Shown here one piece after another: positions 23,197-33,508 of a stretch of 54,085 bases of DNA (its first letter is position 1; every line of letters starts with the position of its first letter). Location of the stretch: the IMG/VR virus record IMGVR_UViG_3300039037_000056, positions 1 to 54,085 of that record; one strand, given 5' to 3'. The notes beneath the pieces are model-generated. The model was not told the DNA's origin and did no database searches. It worked only from the letters and a program-made list of their open reading frames with translations. Both the position numbers and the translations under genes were made by a program. This DNA comes from a virus.

Positions 23197-23877
23197 TTAG
23201 TCCTCTTTGGGTGATTCAGTGTATTTATTTTCGCGTTCGTCTGCCGTTTTCCAGAAGTATTCATCTTCACGACCCATACCGAGACGCTTGTAACCATTTT
23301 CAACTTGATAATACTGTGTAGAAACCTTAAAATCAGGCATTTTGGGTTCTACAGGAGTCAGACTATTATCAAAGATACGTAATCTATTGTTTGGATAGAG
23401 TGCATACTGTCCGTTTTCAAGTTCAATTAGGTTATGAGACTTGTGTTCGGCAGGATTTTCACTCGTCGCCCAGTCAACATAGTCTGGATCATGATGATAG
23501 TTGTCAATCGTACAGACATAAGTTCCCTTCACAATACCATGATCGCGAGTGTAGCACTCATAATCCATTGAACCAATGAACTTCTTATCTACACTAACGA
23601 CACCATAGTCCATACAGTTCCAAAACTGTAGGTTGGGGAGGTCCATATCAGGCGTAGGAGTTTCTGGATCCGAGACAAACGCACTAATCGGCAACTTATC
23701 ATACATTGCCGCATATTCTGGTAAGTAAGTTTCAAAATAAAAAGCGCGTCCAGGTATGGATTTAACCGATACCCAAACGCCCTTTACAAACTCACCGTGT
23801 CCAGATTGATGATCCGTCAGATATTCTTTACGGACCCATACTTCCTGAGAAGGAAGATTAGCAATCAAGCAAGCCAT
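23197..23877 (-). CDS. Conserved cyanophage hypothetical protein, 226 aa
   Basis: A soluble protein starting MACLIANLPSQEVWVRKEYL, rich in aromatic and acidic residues, with no signal peptide or membrane segment. I see a beta-rich N-terminal half (VWVSVKSIPGRAFYFETYL) and a Tyr/Asp/His-rich middle (NYHHDPDYVDW). No catalytic motif is recognisable. Position directly upstream of gp25 suggests a virion or assembly role, but that is inference from context. Confidence 0.8.
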   Translation of the reverse strand: MACLIANLPSQEVWVRKEYLTDHQSGHGEFVKGVWVSVKSIPGRAFYFETYLPEYAAMYDKLPISAFVSDPETPTPDMDLPNLQFWNCMDYGVVSVDKKFIGSMDYECYTRDHGIVKGTYVCTIDNYHHDPDYVDWATSENPAEHKSHNLIELENGQYALYPNNRLRIFDNSLTPVEPKMPDFKVSTQYYQVENGYKRLGMGREDEYFWKTADERENKYTESPKED

Positions 23878-23904
23878 GTAGTCTTTACAAATCTAAACTA
23901 TGTA

Positions 23905-24054
23905 TTATCGTCCTTGACCGCGATATGCTTTCTTCTTGTTATTACGAGAAGTAGCGGCGTACTTCGTGTTTTTTCCCGATCCTTGACGAGACTTCTTCGG
24001 TTTTCCGGGCATAAACCCGTCTTTGACGACACCGACTTTAGAACGCATTGCCAT
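23905..24054 (-). CDS. Small very basic protein, 49 aa
   Basis: ATG at 24054 to TAA at 23905. The start overlaps the stop of the next gene upstream as TAATG. The product opens MAMRSKVGVVKDGFMPGKPK and continues with a Lys/Arg/Gly/Asn-rich tail ending AYRGQGR. It has no acidic cluster and is probably nucleic-acid binding or disordered. I recall similar mini proteins in other cyanomyoviruses but no function. Confidence 0.8.
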   Translation of the reverse strand: MAMRSKVGVVKDGFMPGKPKKSRQGSGKNTKYAATSRNNKKKAYRGQGR

Positions 24055-25386: not shown

Positions 25387-25401
25387 GGGGTCAGCGACCC
25401 C
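25387..25401 (-). terminator. Short GC hairpin at the stop of the wHTH-like gene
   Basis: GGGGTC-AGC-GACCCC overlaps the stop codon at 25391-25393. The minus-strand sequence after it is CTTGTG, with no clear T-run. The following 25330-25375 is extremely GC-rich with further self-complementarity (CCGCC...GGCGG, then TTT). It probably marks the left border and 3' end of the GC-rich gene island; terminator activity is uncertain. Confidence 0.35.
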
Positions 25402-25693
25402 AGAGGAACCGTGCTACCCGCTCCCGCTTACGCAGTGGCATCAGGCGGGTGTATTCCACCCAACGGGGACCAAGTTCGTGGCGCTTGATCAGACCCTTGC
25501 TTGCCATTGCCTTCAGGTACTTGGAAAGACCGGTGCGGGCGTCGTTAGGCATGCCCAGGGCGGCGTTGATATCAGTCGGACGGAGACCGTCTTGCGTGAT
25601 GCCATCGTCGCCGTTGTCCATAGGAAGGACAGACAGGATTGCCCAGGTGTAGGTAGCGCCGAAGGACTTGCGATTGGTGATGGAGGTGAACAT
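25391..25693 (-). CDS. Putative winged-helix DNA-binding protein, 100 aa
   Basis: The middle (residues about 33-75: TDINAALGMPNDARTGLSKY, LKAMASKGLIKRHELG) reads as helix-turn-helix plus wing: alanine-rich recognition helix, KYL..M..KGLI, then a basic wing R..L..RW..Y. The C-terminus is very basic (LRKRERVARFLWGR). The ATG at 25693 follows the conserved leader; an upstream in-frame ATG (25717) would lie between the -10 and the leader. It is the last gene of the GC-rich cassette island and could be its regulator, but that is inference. Confidence 0.65.
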   Translation of the reverse strand: MFTSITNRKSFGATYTWAILSVLPMDNGDDGITQDGLRPTDINAALGMPNDARTGLSKYLKAMASKGLIKRHELGPRWVEYTRLMPLRKRERVARFLWGR

Positions 25694-25751
25694 GGTGGGT
25701 TCGTTTGAACTGATCAAATAATAACATGGAAGGGACCGCTGTGCGATCCCT
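25694..25751 (-). promoter_or_regulatory. Cassette promoter/leader 1 with upstream hairpin
   Basis: Reading minus: hairpin AGGGATCGC-ACA-GCGGTCCCT (25731-25751), then -10 TATTAT (25718-25723), then the conserved leader TCAGTTCAAACGAACCCACC directly before ATG 25693. The -10 lies 25 nt from the ATG, within the 22-26 nt range shared by all cassettes. No Shine-Dalgarno is present. Confidence 0.6.
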
Positions 25752-25762
25752 TTAGAATCTTT

Positions 25763-26041
25763 TCAGATTCCATCATGCCAAGGTGTCCCGAACGATCCCA
25801 TCATCTGATCATCAGTCGGTTCCCATGTCTGCGACTCCTCTTCCCATACCTGCTCAATCTCCCCGTATTGTTCTTCGGGTACGGTGCGACCGGTGATCTG
25901 CTCATGCCAGTCGCAAGCGTCCTCCCATGAGCATCCGGCGTGCTCCTGGACATATTCACGGAGCGCGGGCAGGTCCAGGGGTTCGATCCGGTTGATCCGG
26001 GTTTCGTAGGAATCCAGGGAAGAGGTGTGAAAGTCGGTCAT
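25763..26041 (-). CDS. Hypothetical acidic island protein, 92 aa
   Basis: Begins MTDFHTSSLDSYETRINRIE and is rich in Glu, Asp and Trp (EEQYGEIEQVWEEESQTWEP). It contains EHAGCSWEDACDWHEQITGR, a possible helical segment. The start at 26041 is chosen because it directly follows the conserved leader. I do not recognise the family. GC-rich codon use like its island neighbours. Confidence 0.65.
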   Translation of the reverse strand: MTDFHTSSLDSYETRINRIEPLDLPALREYVQEHAGCSWEDACDWHEQITGRTVPEEQYGEIEQVWEEESQTWEPTDDQMMGSFGTPWHDGI

Positions 26042-26098
26042 GTTCGGTGGGTGTGAACTGAACAAATAATACCACGGATCCGGCGGATGCAACCGCCG
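26042..26098 (-). promoter_or_regulatory. Cassette promoter/leader 2 with upstream hairpin
   Basis: Hairpin CGGCGG-N6-CCGCCG at 26081-26098, -10 TATTAT at 26066-26071, leader TTCAGTTCACACCCACCGAAC before ATG 26041 (-10 to ATG 25 nt). The hairpin follows the stop of the 74-aa gene and may also act in 3'-end formation. Confidence 0.6.
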
Positions 26099-26112
26099 AA
26101 CCCTTAAAAGAA

Positions 26113-26337
26113 TCAGAACTTAGATCCCTGCAGGGATCGTGCCCACACGATGCAGTCGGTGCCGATGATTTCCGGAACCTCAGACCGTGCACTCTCACGA
26201 GCGGCAATTGACCAGGCGGGAGCGCCGCAGGAGGGCGGTGTCTGACTGCTAATGACCATTTCAGCGTCGTGGTCAGGAAGGCGTCCGACCCATACGCGGG
26301 TCCGGTCGTCAATAGATGAGGCGGGAGAGTAGATCAT
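26113..26337 (-). CDS. Hypothetical island protein, 74 aa
   Basis: Begins MIYSPASSIDDRTRVWVGRL and continues with DHDAEMVISSQTPPSCGAP and a C-terminal GTDCIVWARSLQGSKF. The beta-rich pattern and the VWVGR..D.D motif are visible, but I do not recognise the family. It is preceded by a cassette promoter/leader and followed by a hairpin. Confidence 0.65.
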   Translation of the reverse strand: MIYSPASSIDDRTRVWVGRLPDHDAEMVISSQTPPSCGAPAWSIAARESARSEVPEIIGTDCIVWARSLQGSKF

Positions 26338-26393
26338 CGGTGTGGGTTGAAACTACAGAAATCATACCATGGGACGGGGTGGATGCCCACCCC
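26338..26393 (-). promoter_or_regulatory. Cassette promoter/leader 3 with upstream hairpin
   Basis: Stem GGGGTGG / CCACCCC (26376-26393), -10 TATGAT (26361-26366), leader TGTAGTTTCAACCCACACCG before ATG 26337 (24 nt). This leader and leader 6 are a TAGTTTCAACCC variant of the TTCAGTTCAAACCC type. Confidence 0.6.
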
Positions 26394-26405
26394 TTAAGGT
26401 TCTTT

Positions 26406-26579
26406 TCAGATCCACTCCCAACCTTCGGCGGCGAAGTGCCGCCAGTGCTCCCGCGCTTCTTCTGTAGTCAGGACCATATGCTCGCCCGCTTGGTCAAGGA
26501 CCATGACCATACCAGGGCGGCGCTTCATGGGAGTGTAGTCCCAGTTGAAACGACCGTCAGGGGAGACTTGAATGTGCAT
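26406..26579 (-). CDS. Hypothetical island protein, 57 aa
   Basis: ATG at 26579 directly after the leader. Begins MHIQVSPDGRFNWDYTPMKR and contains GMVMVLDQAGEHMVLTTEEA followed by EHWRHFAAEGWEWI, a Trp-rich C-terminal helix. A longer upstream frame exists but would run through the promoter and the preceding hairpin. Unknown function. Confidence 0.6.
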   Translation of the reverse strand: MHIQVSPDGRFNWDYTPMKRRPGMVMVLDQAGEHMVLTTEEAREHWRHFAAEGWEWI

Positions 26580-26633
26580 TGGTTGGTTGCGACTGACCAA
26601 ATAATACCATAGAAAGGGGCGCAGGTGCGCCCC
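26580..26633 (-). promoter_or_regulatory. Cassette promoter/leader 4 with terminator-like hairpin
   Basis: Stem GGGGCGC / GCGCCCC (26616-26633) followed on the minus strand by TTTCT, then -10 TATTAT (26601-26606), leader GGTCAGTCGCAACCAACCA and ATG 26579 (22 nt). Stem plus short T-run could end the transcript of the 118-aa gene immediately before the next promoter. Confidence 0.6.
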
Positions 26634-26640
26634 GTGACCC

Positions 26641-26997
26641 TTAGGCAAATTTGAAGATGTAACCCGTTGTCCAATCATCGGCATTGAACACCTTACCGGT
26701 AACCGGGGATTGTCCGACCAACTTGTGCACATACCATTGAAAATCCTTCTGAAAAATACCCTCTCCAGGGACACCGAATTCCTGGCAGATAGCATTAAGG
26801 CGGGATTTTGTGGTCACTGTCTGATACCCGGAATCGAACAGTTCGGCATCATTTTCATAAACAATGGCGATCAAATTTCCGTGCAAATAAACAGTGGAAG
26901 ACTTGTAGTCTTCGTTGTAGTGAACAGAAGTGTTGCCGGATGCCCAGTTCCGCTTGCCTTTGATGGCGGAGAGCATTTCTGATTCGATCTTGCGCAT
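26641..26997 (-). CDS. Conserved phage hypothetical protein, 118 aa
   Basis: Begins MRKIESEMLSAIKGKRNWAS, followed by GNTSVHY and VYLHGNLIAIVYEND, then a helical QTVTTKSRLNAICQEFGV and a W.V.K..G beta tail. I recall a widespread phage and bacterial family with this R.IE..M..AI....NW...NT.V......HGN.IA pattern, with no known function. ATG 26997 directly follows the conserved leader. Confidence 0.7.
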   Translation of the reverse strand: MRKIESEMLSAIKGKRNWASGNTSVHYNEDYKSSTVYLHGNLIAIVYENDAELFDSGYQTVTTKSRLNAICQEFGVPGEGIFQKDFQWYVHKLVGQSPVTGKVFNADDWTTGYIFKFA

Positions 26998-27054
26998 GGT
27001 GGTGTGGGTTGCGACTGAACAAATAATACCATAGAAAGGGGCGGATGCCGCCCC
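26998..27054 (-). promoter_or_regulatory. Cassette promoter/leader 5 with terminator-like hairpin
   Basis: Stem GGGGCGG / CCGCCCC (27038-27054) then TTTCTATGG, -10 TATTAT (27023-27028), leader TTCAGTCGCAACCCACACC and ATG 26997 (26 nt). From the TTTCTATGGTATTATTTG run to CGCAACC it nearly matches cassette 4. Confidence 0.6.
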
Positions 27055-27062
27055 GTTAACAT

Positions 27063-27245
27063 TCAGTAACAAACCTCCATCCATGTCTGCTCATTGCACT
27101 CGATCACCATTGCCTTGCCGCCGCGCTCAATTGACCAGTCACACGCCACGTCAAGAGCGTGATGCTCGCTGGTGAAGTATTCCCGCTCATCCCGCTCACC
27201 CTTAGGGTGAACAGACCAGGATGTGAAACGATGAGTGGTGGTCAT
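27063..27245 (-). CDS. Hypothetical island protein, 60 aa
   Basis: Begins MTTTHRFTSWSVHPKGERDE and contains an EYFTSEHHALDVACDWSIER helix and GGKAMVIECNEQTW. The arrangement of one helix between beta strands suggests a small alpha/beta fold. No family recognised. Own promoter/leader upstream, hairpin downstream. Confidence 0.65.
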   Translation of the reverse strand: MTTTHRFTSWSVHPKGERDEREYFTSEHHALDVACDWSIERGGKAMVIECNEQTWMEVCY

Positions 27246-27306
27246 GGTGCCGGGTTGAAACTACAGAAATAATAGCACGGATCCGGCGGTGTCATCCACC
27301 GGATCC
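27246..27306 (-). promoter_or_regulatory. Cassette promoter/leader 6 with long hairpin
   Basis: Arms GGATCCGGTGG / CCGCCGGATCC (27279-27306) form an 11-bp stem with one mismatch. Then comes -10 TATTAT (27269-27274, preceded by TGC) and leader TGTAGTTTCAACCCGGCACC to ATG 27245 (24 nt). Confidence 0.6.
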
Positions 27307-27315
27307 TTAAAAGAA

Positions 27316-27567
27316 TCAGCAAGCGCAGACCATGGCAGAATTGAACAATTGTGGGATCATAGATTCGTCGGTTACTTGATAACCATAACCATGGGTGCGA
27401 GAATCGAATTCATATTGAAAATCGTTTTTGTTGATGTAACTTTTGGATTGTGTTTTACCTTGGAAAGTTACAACTTTGAGCATGAGTCGATTGTGAATCT
27501 TACCCGAAGCAAATTTCACGGGATAGAAATCAACGACCATGTTTCCGTCTTTTGAGGTGAGTTGCAT
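27316..27567 (-). CDS. Hypothetical island protein, 83 aa
   Basis: Begins MQLTSKDGNMVVDFYPVKFA and continues HNRLMLKVVTFQGKTQSKSY, with a C-terminal GYGYQVTDESMIPQLF. The DGNM..DF..VKF..GK..N..M.KV pattern suggests a small beta protein. Family not recognised. The ATG at 27567 follows the conserved leader; an upstream extension would pass through promoter 7. Confidence 0.65.
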   Translation of the reverse strand: MQLTSKDGNMVVDFYPVKFASGKIHNRLMLKVVTFQGKTQSKSYINKNDFQYEFDSRTHGYGYQVTDESMIPQLFNSAMVCAC

Positions 27568-27620
27568 TGATCGGTGGGTTTGAACTGAATCCATAATGCA
27601 CCAGATCCGGGCACTGTGCC
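27568..27620 (-). promoter_or_regulatory. Cassette promoter/leader 7 with GGCAC-T-GTGCC palindrome
   Basis: -10 CATTAT (27593-27598), leader TTCAGTTCAAACCCACCGATC and ATG 27567 (26 nt). Upstream is the perfect 11-bp palindrome GGCACTGTGCC (27610-27620), which also occurs at 25357-25367, at the left border of the island. Confidence 0.55.
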
Positions 27621-27693
27621 GCCAGAGTGGACACCTCAGAAACTGGCACAACAAATCCCCATAGCATCCGGATCCCTGGTATCTTATAGGAAA

Positions 27694-27810: not shown

Positions 27811-27869
27811 TATCTCCCCCCAGTGTGTTAGGATGGAGCTAGACGTTAGTGCCACCCTGTGTGCCACAT

Positions 27870-27899
27870 AAAAAAGCGGTCCCGCACCACCAGGACCGC
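27870..27899 (-). terminator. Rho-independent terminator
   Basis: Minus strand: GCGGTCC-N10-GGACCGC followed by a run of six T. The 7-bp GC-rich stem and T-run are canonical. It lies about 115 nt downstream of the promoter at 27993-28001, with no ORF in between. Confidence 0.8.
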
Positions 27900-27986
27900 C
27901 AGAAAACCCAACCAATATGCTAGAATTATGTGTTTCGTTACTCGCCGGGTGACTTTACGTTTCGTGAGAGGCGAACCCTTTCCTCT
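27870..27986 (-). ncRNA. Putative small noncoding RNA, about 117 nt
   Basis: A promoter with extended -10 (TGCTATAAT at 27993-28001) should initiate near 27986, and the transcript meets a canonical terminator at 27870-27899. No ATG-started frame of useful length exists in between. The 5' part can fold (TCGCC pairing with GGCGA around a loop containing TCACGAAACG). Nothing here matches an RNA family I know. It shares the string CGCCTCTC with the leader RNA at 37.9 kb. Confidence 0.5.
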
Positions 27987-28077
27987 CTAGTTATTATAGC
28001 ATCTAGTAATGCGTGTGTCTAGTTGTGTGTATCTAGTTGTAATATGCGCGATCTAGTTGACCGCGCACAATCTAGTC
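27986..28077 (-). repeat. Array of six ACTAGA elements over a promoter
   Basis: TCTAGT on the plus strand (ACTAGA on minus) starts at 27986, 28002, 28018, 28032, 28052 and 28071, spacings 16, 16, 14, 20 and 19. Four of the six extend to AACTAGA. The copy at 28002 abuts the extended -10 of the small-RNA promoter and four lie upstream, as for an activator or repressor binding array. The elements also begin at the 3' end of the KTSC-like gene (stop 28082). Confidence 0.65.
27993..28001 (-). promoter_or_regulatory. Extended -10 promoter of the putative small RNA
   Basis: Minus-strand TGCTATAAT, a perfect extended -10. Directly upstream is ACTAGA. The promoter of the 59-aa gene at 29366 has the same ACTAGATG...GCTATAAT arrangement. 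The -35 region has no TTGACA match and is occupied by the ACTAGA array, suggesting regulated use. Confidence 0.6.
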
Positions 28078-28081
28078 GAGA

Positions 28082-28303
28082 TCAGGCAGAGACTTTCTGA
28101 AGGGTCTCGTTCTTGATAGACTTGTTCACAAAGCGACCAACAGACTGCTCAGGTGCCATGGCGGCAGTCAGGGCAGTGGTGAAGGCAGTCACGTCGTTGA
28201 CGGTGTAGTCATAGGAGCGACCACCAGTGAAGGTCACGGTCACGGTTTGATCCTCGATGCTGATGTTCTCAACGGCGGAGGAGTTGGAGATAGCGAATTG
28301 CAT
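28082..28303 (-). CDS. KTSC-like small protein, 73 aa
   Basis: Begins MQFAISNSSAVENISIEDQT, then VTVTFTGGRSYDYTVNDVTA and SVGRFVNKSIKN. The order S-x-V..I......VTVTF..G..Y.Y.V.....F, followed by GRF.N..I, fits the KTSC domain, whose function is not established. A separate promoter (28369-28397) and a 65-nt leader lie upstream. The leader contains GCGGG...CCCGC. Confidence 0.6.
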   Translation of the reverse strand: MQFAISNSSAVENISIEDQTVTVTFTGGRSYDYTVNDVTAFTTALTAAMAPEQSVGRFVNKSIKNETLQKVSA

Positions 28304-28368: not shown

Positions 28369-28397
28369 AGTATAGGATGGGGTTGATGCTGTGTCAA
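28369..28397 (-). promoter_or_regulatory. Consensus sigma70-like promoter for the KTSC-like gene
   Basis: Minus strand: TTGACA (28392-28397), 17-bp spacer, TATACT (28369-28374). This is the best consensus promoter in the window. The transcript would have a leader of about 60 nt containing a GCGGG/CCCGC hairpin (28334-28357 region) before ATG 28303, so it is unlike the short-leader cassettes. Confidence 0.75.
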
Positions 28398-28412
28398 CCC
28401 CCTTGTGCCAGT

Positions 28413-28652
28413 TCAGAGATCGTCCATCATCTCTGTGACTTCACCCGCGTCGATTGCAGGATCATTCCACTTTACACCATCAGGCGTTTCAGTGCTGCCG
28501 CAAGCATAGAGGAATTCTACCAGATCCTGGTACATTTTGCCAAACTTAGCAAGACGTTTCGCCTCATTGTAGAGACCTTCGTCGTTGCCGATCCAGAGGG
28601 AGACATTCCACGTTTCGTAGTTTGCCCATCCTTGGTAAGTGGTGTCGGTCAT
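28413..28652 (-). CDS. Conserved small phage/bacterial protein, 79 aa
   Basis: Begins MTDTTYQGWANYETWNVSLW, followed by IGNDEGLYNEAKRLAKFG, a signature of a widespread family of small phage and bacterial proteins (Y.GW.NYETWNV.LWI.NDEGLY). No function is established to my knowledge. ATG 28652 follows a conserved cassette leader (TTCAGTTCAAACAAACC); -10 TATAGT lies at 28674-28679. Confidence 0.75.
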   Translation of the reverse strand: MTDTTYQGWANYETWNVSLWIGNDEGLYNEAKRLAKFGKMYQDLVEFLYACGSTETPDGVKWNDPAIDAGEVTEMMDDL

Positions 28653-28679
28653 TGGTTTGTTTGAACTGAAGTTACTATA
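28653..28679 (-). promoter_or_regulatory. Cassette-type promoter/leader 8
   Basis: -10 TATAGT (28674-28679) and leader TTCAGTTCAAACAAACCA, ATG 28652 (22 nt). No hairpin immediately upstream here. Confidence 0.55.
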
Positions 28680-28686
28680 GGGCAGA

Positions 28687-28884
28687 TCAACCGAAGAACC
28701 ATGGGCGTTGGTCCAGTTCGTGAACTGGTCCCAGTTCGTCCACAGTGTGAACCTCGGTATCAGACCACAGGGATGCAGCAGTGAACAGTTGCACTGCTTC
28801 AAACCTGCTGTAGCAGTCCCAGGTTGCCGTGTGGGGTTTGCCGTCGCTGGTGGCGTGGATGACGTAGCGGTTGATGGTTTGCAT
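28687..28884 (-). CDS. Hypothetical protein, 65 aa
   Basis: Begins MQTINRYVIHATSDGKPHTA, then TWDCYSRFEAVQLFTAASLW and ends DQRPWFFG. Strand-helix-strand layout. The start at 28884 directly follows a conserved leader. Family not recognised. Confidence 0.6.
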   Translation of the reverse strand: MQTINRYVIHATSDGKPHTATWDCYSRFEAVQLFTAASLWSDTEVHTVDELGPVHELDQRPWFFG

Positions 28885-28913
28885 CGGTGTGGGTTTGAAC
28901 TGAGTCAAACATA
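28885..28913 (-). promoter_or_regulatory. Cassette-type promoter/leader 9
   Basis: -10 TATGTT (28908-28913) and leader CTCAGTTCAAACCCACACCG to ATG 28884 (24 nt). Confidence 0.55.
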
Positions 28914-28950
28914 AGGCAGAAACCCGGTCAGGTCAATACCCAATAGACAC

Positions 28951-29124
28951 TTACCAAACTGGCACATCGTTGCCATAATCCCGGACATTTACCTCTACAG
29001 ATTCATCACCCTGTAAGTCCAGGAGATCCGTCCAGTTCAGGTCTTCTAGTGGCAGGTCATCGTAACACATAATATCCAGCGTCACGGTCACAAGACGCTT
29101 CTGTGTGATAGTGTGTGCGGACAT
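28951..29124 (-). CDS. Conserved cyanophage small protein, 57 aa
   Basis: Begins MSAHTITQKRLVTVTLDIMC and continues with an acidic, Leu-rich helix (DDLPLEDLNWTDLLDLQ) and GDESVEVNVRDYGNDVPVW. The final codons contain the recurring GTGCCAGTT string. Own promoter at 29149-29177. Looks like a small acidic alpha/beta protein; function unknown. Confidence 0.75.
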   Translation of the reverse strand: MSAHTITQKRLVTVTLDIMCYDDLPLEDLNWTDLLDLQGDESVEVNVRDYGNDVPVW

Positions 29125-29837: not shown

Positions 29838-29844
29838 TTATTCC

Positions 29845-31164
29845 TTATGCTTTACCATCCTTAGGTACTGAGTTTAACTTATCATATAATTTCTGATACT
29901 TAGTGTTTAGATCATCTAATCCTTTCTTCATAGCATCATTGATACCCTTCTCAGTCTTTGGTGGTATTGCTGCTATCATAGGGTTAATAATTCTCTTTCT
30001 CTTATCACTTGGTACTGGTAACATTCCTTCTGGAATATCCTGCTTTCTATTCCTACGTTGTTGTGCTTCATAAGATCTTCTATCTCTTACTCTCTGTGGT
30101 GATGCTCCTGTTCTCTTTGGTAGAGTATCAGTTGGTTTAGGTACTTCCTGTCCTACCTTTACTCTTACCTTTGCTCTTGAAGGAACAATAGGATCAGATG
30201 TTACGTCTCTCAGTTCATCTCTAAAGTCTTTCAAGTTCTTATCAATCTCTGCTCTCTTCTTTGTTCCTGGTTTTGCTTTACTCTGTCCCATCTGTTGTCT
30301 GGTAGCATCAATAGTTTTTCTATTCTCTGCCTTCTCCTGTCTGTACTGTTCTTGTGATCTTGTATCACCTTTCTCTGCTCTTTTCTTTGCTTCTGTATCC
30401 TTCTTCAACAGTCTTCCTAACTTAGCACGATCACCTGGTTTTGTGATGTCTAAGTTATTATCTTTTGCCAACTGTCTTCTTCTTTCTTTATCTGCTTTTG
30501 ATGCTTGAAGCATAGTACCAACAGCACCAATACCTGTCATAATCTTAGGCACTAAGTTACTACCTGCTTTGATTGCCATTGAGGCAGCACCTTCATTTAC
30601 TTTCCCAAACTTATTAACTAAACGTTCCCGACGTTGTATGCTACTAAGTACCTCTCTTCCTCTTCTGTTAATAATAGGTGCAATGTTTTGATCGTATCCC
30701 TGCGCCATTCTTTGTGCAGTGCTAGGTGCTGACGCTGCTGGTTTAGGTGCTACTGTGCCTGCGTTAGCAGGTGCTTTTGTTCGCGCAGTATCAACCTTTT
30801 GCATGAAGTCTTTGAACGTTGTTTGAGTTCCAGTCTTCAAACCTTTTTCCCCTGCTTCATACCTTTGCTTTGCAGTTGGAGCGGGTTGCGTAGCAGATGC
30901 TTTAGGTTGTACGGTAGGTTTAGGAGTTGCTACTCTTTTTGCCTGTGAGTCTACAAATCCTTTATTCCTTAATTCACTCTGAAAGTTACGAATAGCACGG
31001 AAGTCTGATGAAGTTTTAGGGGCGCTGATCTGATGTCCCAGACTATCTCTGAACTTCAGATGCTTTCCCTTGCTTGTTACTAACTTCGCACCGTATCTCT
31101 TCGCCATGTTGATGAATACCATCATGGCCTTTGTGTACCCTTCGTTTATATTATGCTCTTTCAC
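29845..31164 (-). CDS. Very basic 439-aa protein with HicA-like N-terminus
   Basis: Residues about 13-71 (AMMVFINMAKRYGAKLVTSK, GKHLKFRDSLGHQISAPK, RAIRNFQSELRNKGF) follow the HicA/YcfA layout: helix, K-G-x-H-x-K-F, G..I..P, and a final basic helix. The rest is Lys/Arg/Ala/Gln/Pro-rich and probably extended, with one hydrophobic stretch (LVPKIMTGIGAVGTMLQ) near residue 210. The annotated start is GTG; ATGs at 31125 and 31122 are alternatives. It follows the late-type ADP-ribosyltransferase gene by 34 nt, so it may be a DNA-binding internal virion or effector protein. That role is inference. Confidence 0.7.
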   Translation of the reverse strand: MKEHNINEGYTKAMMVFINMAKRYGAKLVTSKGKHLKFRDSLGHQISAPKTSSDFRAIRNFQSELRNKGFVDSQAKRVATPKPTVQPKASATQPAPTAKQRYEAGEKGLKTGTQTTFKDFMQKVDTARTKAPANAGTVAPKPAASAPSTAQRMAQGYDQNIAPIINRRGREVLSSIQRRERLVNKFGKVNEGAASMAIKAGSNLVPKIMTGIGAVGTMLQASKADKERRRQLAKDNNLDITKPGDRAKLGRLLKKDTEAKKRAEKGDTRSQEQYRQEKAENRKTIDATRQQMGQSKAKPGTKKRAEIDKNLKDFRDELRDVTSDPIVPSRAKVRVKVGQEVPKPTDTLPKRTGASPQRVRDRRSYEAQQRRNRKQDIPEGMLPVPSDKRKRIINPMIAAIPPKTEKGINDAMKKGLDDLNTKYQKLYDKLNSVPKDGKA

Positions 31165-33183: not shown

Positions 33184-33309
33184 TCAGAAATCGTAGTCGG
33201 AGTTGATGTATTCTTCTACATCAAACTTTTCGTCTTGCATCTCCGGAATGTCATAGATTTCATCAGAGGTCTCCATGAGGTCGCGGAGGATCAGGTCTTC
33301 GTGGTTCAT
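33184..33309 (-). CDS. Acidic mini protein, 41 aa
   Basis: ATG 33309 is directly preceded by the cassette leader TTCAGTTCAATCAAACCA and a TATACT -10 at 33331-33336, as in the 25-29 kb island. Begins MNHEDLILRDLMETSDEIYD and ends DVEEYINSDYDF. Very acidic; function unknown. Confidence 0.6.
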   Translation of the reverse strand: MNHEDLILRDLMETSDEIYDIPEMQDEKFDVEEYINSDYDF

Positions 33310-33336
33310 TGGTTTGATTGAACTGAACTTAGTATA
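33310..33336 (-). promoter_or_regulatory. Cassette-type promoter/leader 10
   Basis: TATACT (33331-33336) and leader TTCAGTTCAATCAAACCA before ATG 33309 (22 nt). A copy of the island leader located about 4.4 kb away from the main array. Confidence 0.55.
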
Positions 33337-33340
33337 AGGG

Positions 33341-33508
33341 TCAGGCATGACCGATGTGGAGCATACGGTGCAGTTCTTCAACTGTCACACCCAGCTCCTG
33401 GGATGCTTCTTCATCCCACCTACGATTGTTCGCTTCACACTGCTGGATAAACATGGGATCTTCGCACATGCCTTCCACCAGTTCTTCAAAGGTCAGAGAA
33501 TCATTCAT
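33341..33508 (-). CDS. Hypothetical acidic protein, 55 aa
   Basis: ATG 33508 overlaps the stop of the 93-aa gene (TGATG). Begins MNDSLTFEELVEGMCEDPMF and continues IQQCEANNRRWDEEASQELG, VTVEELHRML. Helical, acidic, two Cys. Likely translationally coupled. Confidence 0.65.
   Translation of the reverse strand: MNDSLTFEELVEGMCEDPMFIQQCEANNRRWDEEASQELGVTVEELHRMLHIGHA

Follow-up and report, generated by a model that had tools for sequence, protein, structure and literature searches.

Morons of lambdoid phages are single genes with their own promoter and terminator that come and go between relatives, and the middle promoters of T4 carry the MotA box at -30. Closest to the locus described here are the promoter-early stem-loops (PeSLs), on which Arbiol et al. 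in 2010 and Comeau et al. in 2014 reportedly worked. PeSLs are described as composite units of promoter and stem-loop that mediate shuffling in T4-like phages (PMC4503421, PMC3950731). In the archaeal myovirus HGTV-1 a repeated promoter (TATA box) with an inverted repeat precedes most left-arm open reading frames (ORFs) and was likened to PeSLs (PMC3950731), and in halovirus HF2 intergenic repeats before early-middle genes were shown to be promoters (PMC8707807). The present locus is an array of seven consecutive small ORFs, each headed by a similar intergenic cassette, in the IMG/VR virus record IMGVR_UViG_3300039037_000056; the whole 54,085-base stretch analysed is called the window, and all coordinates refer to it.

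The cassettes of this array are the PeSL principle of T4-like phages in cyanophage form, with a leader of their own and a virus-specific dyad promoter. Like PeSLs, they are promoter and stem-loop units between small ORFs, dense in variable regions, that give shared homology between unrelated genes. Promoter and stem-loop are joined in a single intergenic unit in six of the seven window cassettes, the same unit recurs many times before unrelated ORFs in a variable region, and the units coincide with gain, loss or exchange of genes between close relatives. Unlike PeSLs, they possess an A/C-rich leader conserved to the ATG and lacking a Shine-Dalgarno sequence, and an extended -10, and sister cyanophage modules bear a dyad centred about 41 nucleotides (nt) upstream of the -10. 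HGTV-1 differs in its archaeal promoter, unrelated in sequence to the cyanophage cassettes; HF2 is also archaeal, and its repeats keep their position between relatives and are not shuffled. With morons the cassettes share the single gene with its own signals and the variable presence, whereas many of them lie in tandem and have intergenic sequence in common. In T4 middle promoters, too, the -35 of a sigma-70-type promoter gives way to a DNA box specific to the phage, but the cyanophage dyad begins 47–51 nt upstream of the -10 and lies at about -53.

It is probable that the array consists of composite intergenic cassettes of PeSL type, which unite promoter and stem-loop in a form specific to Kyanoviridae, and that these mediate ORF exchange. 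Each unit of about 64–78 nt would begin at the preceding gene's stop codon, or at the dyad, and end at the ATG of its own small ORF. The stem-loop would form the 3' end or terminator of the preceding message, the promoter would be a -10 of host sigma-70 type, which takes the extended form TGN-TATKAT in the six cassettes that have a hairpin and is plain, with a dyad upstream, elsewhere, and the leader would be nearly the whole 5' untranslated region. With its own stem-loop, -10 and leader, each ORF would thus be transcribed autonomously. As nearly alike units precede unrelated ORFs, homologous recombination from one unit to another could swap, add or remove ORFs and leave expression intact; it would also homogenise the leaders inside a lineage.

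The window encodes T4-type baseplate wedge genes and a Kyanoviridae Gp96 gene, and its virus is a T4-like cyanophage (Kyanoviridae); the nearest isolate by gp6 is Synechococcus phage S-SRM01 (63%). The array is located in a variable stretch adjoining gp25/gp6, where other cyanophages also have many small ORFs. It spans 25391–27567, with start codons (CAT) at 25691, 26039, 26335, 26577, 26995, 27243 and 27565, and three additional leader-bearing start codons lie at 28650, 28882 and 33307. Array and further sites are all on the minus strand, as follows.

25391–25693, minus: ORF A, 100 aa; orthologues in L005 (81%), L345, L004, L372, L222, L212 and S-SRM01
25694–25765, minus: cassette 1; leader 25694–25717, -10 TATTAT 25718–25723, hairpin 25730–25752 (10 bp)
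25763–26041, minus: ORF B, 92 aa
26042–26115, minus: cassette 2; leader 26042–26065, -10 TATTAT 26066–26071, hairpin about 26076–26103 (11 bp)
26113–26337, minus: ORF C, 74 aa; phrog_30762
26338–26408, minus: cassette 3; variant leader CTGTAGTTTCAACCCACACCG, -10 TATGAT 26361–26366, hairpin about 26376–26393 (7 bp)
26406–26579, minus: ORF D, 57 aa; among the fetched loci only in the window virus and a near-identical strain
26580–26643, minus: cassette 4; leader 26580–26600, -10 TATTAT 26601–26606, hairpin 26616–26633 with TTTCT tail
26641–26997, minus: ORF E, 118 aa; Kyanoviridae Gp96 family (PF23790)
26998–27065, minus: cassette 5; leader 26998–27022, -10 TATTAT 27023–27028, hairpin 27038–27054 with TTTCT tail
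27063–27245, minus: ORF F, 60 aa
27246–27318, minus: cassette 6; variant leader CTGTAGTTTCAACCCGGCACC, -10 TATTAT 27269–27274, hairpin about 27279–27306 (11 bp); mosaic of cassettes 2 and 3
27316–27567, minus: ORF G, 83 aa; phrog_500
27568–27645, minus: cassette 7; leader 27568–27592, -10 CATTAT 27593–27598, no significant hairpin, degenerate dyad CAGTTTCTGAGGTGTCCAC at 27627–27645
28653–28727, minus: putative promoter of ORF 28413–28652 (DUF7249); leader 28653–28673, -10 TATAGT 28674–28679, dyad CAGTTCACGAACTG at 28714–28727
28885–28961, minus: putative promoter of ORF 28687–28884; leader 28885–28907, -10 TATGTT 28908–28913, dyad CAGTTTGGTAAGTGTC at 28946–28961
33310–33384, minus: putative promoter of ORF 33184–33309; leader 33310–33330, -10 TATACT 33331–33336, dyad CAGTTGAAGAACTG at 33371–33384

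A -10 hexamer was present at all ten sites: TATTAT five times, TATGAT and CATTAT in the array, and TATAGT, TATGTT and TATACT at the further three. The A/C-rich leader occupies 21–25 nt between the end of the -10 and the ATG at 10/10 sites, so that the -10 stands at the fixed distance from the start codon expected of host sigma-70 recognition. The Shine-Dalgarno core was detected in none of the ten leader genes, compared with 10 of 40 other genes of the window. A 19-mer, with up to three mismatches, occurred three times against 0.03 expected from shuffles, and a variant leader CTGTAGTTTCAACCC is common to the cassettes at 26335 and 27243. Between the upstream gene's stop codon and the ATG the six hairpin cassettes are similar over their entire 64–74 nt, and all six have an extended -10, with TGN directly before TATKAT. 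The four hairpin-less sites have no TGN before the -10, and bear the dyad CAGTT-N4-AASTG or a close variant 47–48 nt upstream of it (degenerate at 27565; the spacings at 27565 and 28882 were counted manually). Since all sites, those with hairpin and extended -10 and those with the dyad, have the leader, they are best described as two promoter subtypes with one leader. Consensus and conservation argue for promoter firing at these -10 hexamers, and translation presumably starts without a Shine-Dalgarno sequence.

A preliminary description of this DNA had already recognised the series of small genes with their -10 and leader, the further copies at 28653, 28885 and 33310, and the missing Shine-Dalgarno sequence, all of which were recovered here. 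Its constant -10 to ATG distance of 22–26 nt has to be amended to 21–25 nt. The core of its unit was right, but the unit is longer, reaching from the upstream stop codon to the ATG, the extended -10 and the dyad had been missed, and no link to PeSLs had been drawn. The GC-rich hairpin it assigned to all seven genes is found in six: stems of 7–11 base pairs lie directly upstream of the -10 in these cassettes, with minimum free energies of -15.5 to -22.5 kcal/mol (z -1.2 to -4.7), and folding gave no significant hairpin at 27565 (z +1.9) or at the three further sites. A GC-rich stem of seven base pairs occurred in just 1.2% of random 45-mers of the same strand. Stem sequences vary and pairing is kept, with 49/49 pair cells paired and two-sided changes in 6/7 pairs, a count biased by the selection of the arms for pairing. 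Rfam gave no match in the region. Termination at the hairpins may occur; it is uncertain in the window, while some sister modules of ACG-2014f have a GC stem followed by TTTTTT at the equivalent place, which are textbook terminators and make terminator and promoter overlap.

The leader is widely distributed, and the expectation that different ORFs follow one leader in other cyanophages was borne out. Over all fetched loci, the combination of -10, leader and ORF (at least 35 codons) occurred 115 times in 49 contigs and before 65 ORF families, whereas reversed sequences gave 3; the 115 include a handful of chance matches in unrelated contigs. Phage S-PM2 has eight cassettes in a row at 22.1–24.6 kb and reuses the leader CAGTTCAAACGAAACGACCC exactly three times, and leader-bearing ORFs were also found in isolate S-SRM01. 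Other lineages have other leaders before unrelated ORFs; thus, ACG-2014f carries CATACCAAAGGGAACCACCC or close forms before about twenty. Leader similarity within a genome was 0.62 in the window, 0.66 in L022 and 0.65 in ACG-2014f, while window against ACG-2014f gave 0.48, near the shuffled baseline of 0.47. The S-SRM01 leaders reached 0.50 among themselves and do not show such an excess.

These scans of -10, leader and ORF were adopted because a 15-mer leader scan of IMG/VR returned mostly chance matches, with a handful of real contigs among 36; the pattern scan TATKAT...YAGTTCAAAC likewise returned chiefly chance matches. BLAST of one cassette against phages matched mainly Enterococcus phages and was set aside, as these rest on a 21-nt chance match. 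In S-PM2 (NC_006820, L201), leader-preceded ORFs at 23.2–24.2 kb (starts at 23503, 23789 and one near 23263) are unannotated, and an antisense ORF is annotated at 23768–23974, where a DUF7249-type gene begins.

The array differs between close relatives. Between genes g28082 and g25055 its order is G-F-E-D-C-B-A in the window and in a near-identical strain, and X-Y-G-C-B-A in L345, though the genes adjoining the array are 97–100% identical to those of the window. Other arrays read B-E-new-C (L353) and C-A (L212), and L222 has ORF A with different neighbours. The same gene may carry different leaders: ORF G and its L141 orthologue share 86% DNA identity from the ATG on and have unrelated leaders, the ORF G orthologue of ACG-2014f bears the leader of ACG-2014f, and ORF A has the window type in L005, a different leader in L004 and the S-SRM01 type in S-SRM01. 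L345 has nearly the window's hairpin before ORF A, together with a different -10, leader and ORF (59%). The cassette at 27243 is a mosaic whose left half best matches that at 26039 (88%) and whose right half matches that at 26335 (91%). Finally, the window and the near-identical strain differ at 81 columns over 20.5 kb, 62 of them in two tracts, and the tract at 26571–26776 swaps the leader of ORF D (26577), TCAGTCGCAACCAACCA in the window and TCAGTTCAAACCCACACCGAACC in the strain.

Sequence comparison thus documents a shared unit, unrelated ORFs behind it, leader exchange, mosaic units and array turnover beside near-identical flanks. Four independent observations, namely array turnover, one gene with different leaders, mosaic halves and the leader-replacing strain tract, indicate that recombination acts in or at the cassette units, in agreement with the exchangeable cassettes proposed at the outset, and recombination rather than repeated selection appears to spread the leader. 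The comparisons do not prove that the units initiate recombination. The second difference tract between the two strains (29838–29995) covers the 3' part of ORF 29845–31164 and is consistent with a replaced gene end.

Several points weigh against the exchange of PeSL-type cassettes proposed here. Strong termination in the window is doubtful because a short T tract (TTTCT) follows only two of the six hairpins and none follows the other four. No -35 hexamer was found at 16–19 nt in the hairpin cassettes, apart from a weak TGGGCA at 26389. In the S-PM2 ORFanage, PeSLs were judged too sparse to explain gene gain (Puxty et al., PMC4503421); the S-PM2 cassettes of the present analysis lie outside the ORFanage region studied there.

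Among the competing explanations, the best supported places common control first: -10, leader and dyad would be a Kyanoviridae promoter class kept by selection, with a phage-specific factor at the dyad and a common initially transcribed sequence, and recombination would be incidental. Much of the dyad evidence favours it. The dyad CAGT-N5-RRSTGNC occurred at 115 sites in eleven cyanophages (404 kb), where controls gave 4–5. Its distances to the -10 form a sharp peak at 48–51 nt, with 44 sites at 47–51 nt and none in controls. The exact composite, dyad plus -10 at this spacing, was found in at least 120 IMG/VR stretches and, across 257 Gb of bacterial and archaeal genomes, in only 14. The 110 modules, which cover 56 ORF families, give the consensus TGACAGTT-N4-AASTGGCACA followed by TATAMT, and after the -10 there is R at +7, T at +8 (84%), A at +13 (80%) and CAA near +12 to +14; a recognisable -35 (4/6 positions) exists in only 41 of the 110. 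S-CRM01 has twenty dyad matches over both strands. The dyad promoter was not found in T4, KVP40 or Ma-LMM01, nor the dyad at the correct spacing in Syn9. On the other side, lineage-specific leaders, mosaic halves and the leader replaced between strains are unexplained by selection alone, and the six hairpin cassettes have no dyad. Selection for common control as the primary cause is therefore a real possibility, but one to which we give somewhat less than even weight; shared expression control of the cassettes as such is plausible.

The dyad modules have the look of a promoter class belonging to these viruses, with the -35 replaced by an upstream dyad to which a factor may bind. Two other roles were disfavoured: an RNA hairpin, because the right half in ACG-2014f is often AAGTG, which does not pair with CAGTT, while the distance to the -10 is preserved; and a host regulon, because the composite is nearly absent from the 257 Gb of genomes. 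Three of the 14 cellular stretches (L335, L336 and L344) clearly encode cyanophage genes; they are filed under the metagenome-assembled genomes Flavobacteriales TMED113 and Euryarchaeota TMED129 and are probably misbinned. Cyanomyoviruses lack motA and asiA, and their early and middle transcription control has been described as unclear (PMC2984593). Tentatively, and with nearly an even chance of being right, both lines may be united: Kyanoviridae would have their own promoter class, a TGACAGTT-N4-AASTGGCACA dyad fixed 48–51 nt before TATAMT plus a common start-site sequence, recognised by an activator in the role of MotA, either phage-specific or recruited by the phage. The cassettes with leader and hairpin would be a dyad-independent offshoot, and recombination at the units would have spread and homogenised the whole set. 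No description of the leader or the dyad was found in the literature searched, which did not include key transcriptome papers such as that on Syn9, and the novelty of the dyad is not certain.

That the leader is the target of an RNA-level regulator, such as a phage RegA-type translational repressor or a small RNA, is unlikely. Conservation does extend to the ATG without a Shine-Dalgarno sequence, and cyanomyoviruses have regA (PMC2984593), but the leader is wholly different between lineages that have regA in common, and conservation across lineages peaks at +7/+8 and +13/+14 after the -10, close to where the start site is expected. An array made by recently duplicating a single intergenic piece in tandem between genes, with no exchange between phages, would fit cassettes 4 and 5 (84–95% alike) and is largely refuted, and very improbable, given a leader class in 49 contigs of several genera and array content and order that vary beside the near-identical flanks. 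One long polycistronic message, with the likeness of -10 and leader due to composition, has close, co-directional genes and weak T tracts in its favour and is scarcely credible against the extended -10 in 6/6 hairpin cassettes and the controls (115 vs 3; 3 vs 0.03); together with the dyad spacing (44 vs 0), these controls rule out chance or composition as the cause.

T4-like cyanophages occur in great abundance in marine and fresh waters, and ORFans account for many of their small genes. A swappable shared expression cassette offers an outline answer to how small genes enter and stay expressed, and the leader marks true start codons and exposes unannotated small genes. The fixed-spacing, virus-specific dyad promoter makes early and middle control without MotA/AsiA directly testable in isolates such as S-PM2 and ACG-2014f.

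ORF A reads, judged by eye, like a small winged-helix-type protein, without match in Pfam or PHROG, and as such could be a regulator of the array. Upstream of the array, a candidate non-coding RNA of about 120 nt (27869–27988, minus) has its own putative promoter TAGACA-17-TATAAT (28021–27993) and a strong predicted terminator (27900–27875). Rfam gave no match for it; homologues are present in S-SRM01, L345, L353, L358, L378, L381 and L383, with GAGAGGAAAGGGTTYGCCTCTC and AAAGTYACCC in common. Gene 28082–28303 has a perfect TTGACA-17-TATACT promoter (28369–28409, minus) with the -35 inside an inverted repeat, and upstream of this promoter lies a CTGGCACA half-site.

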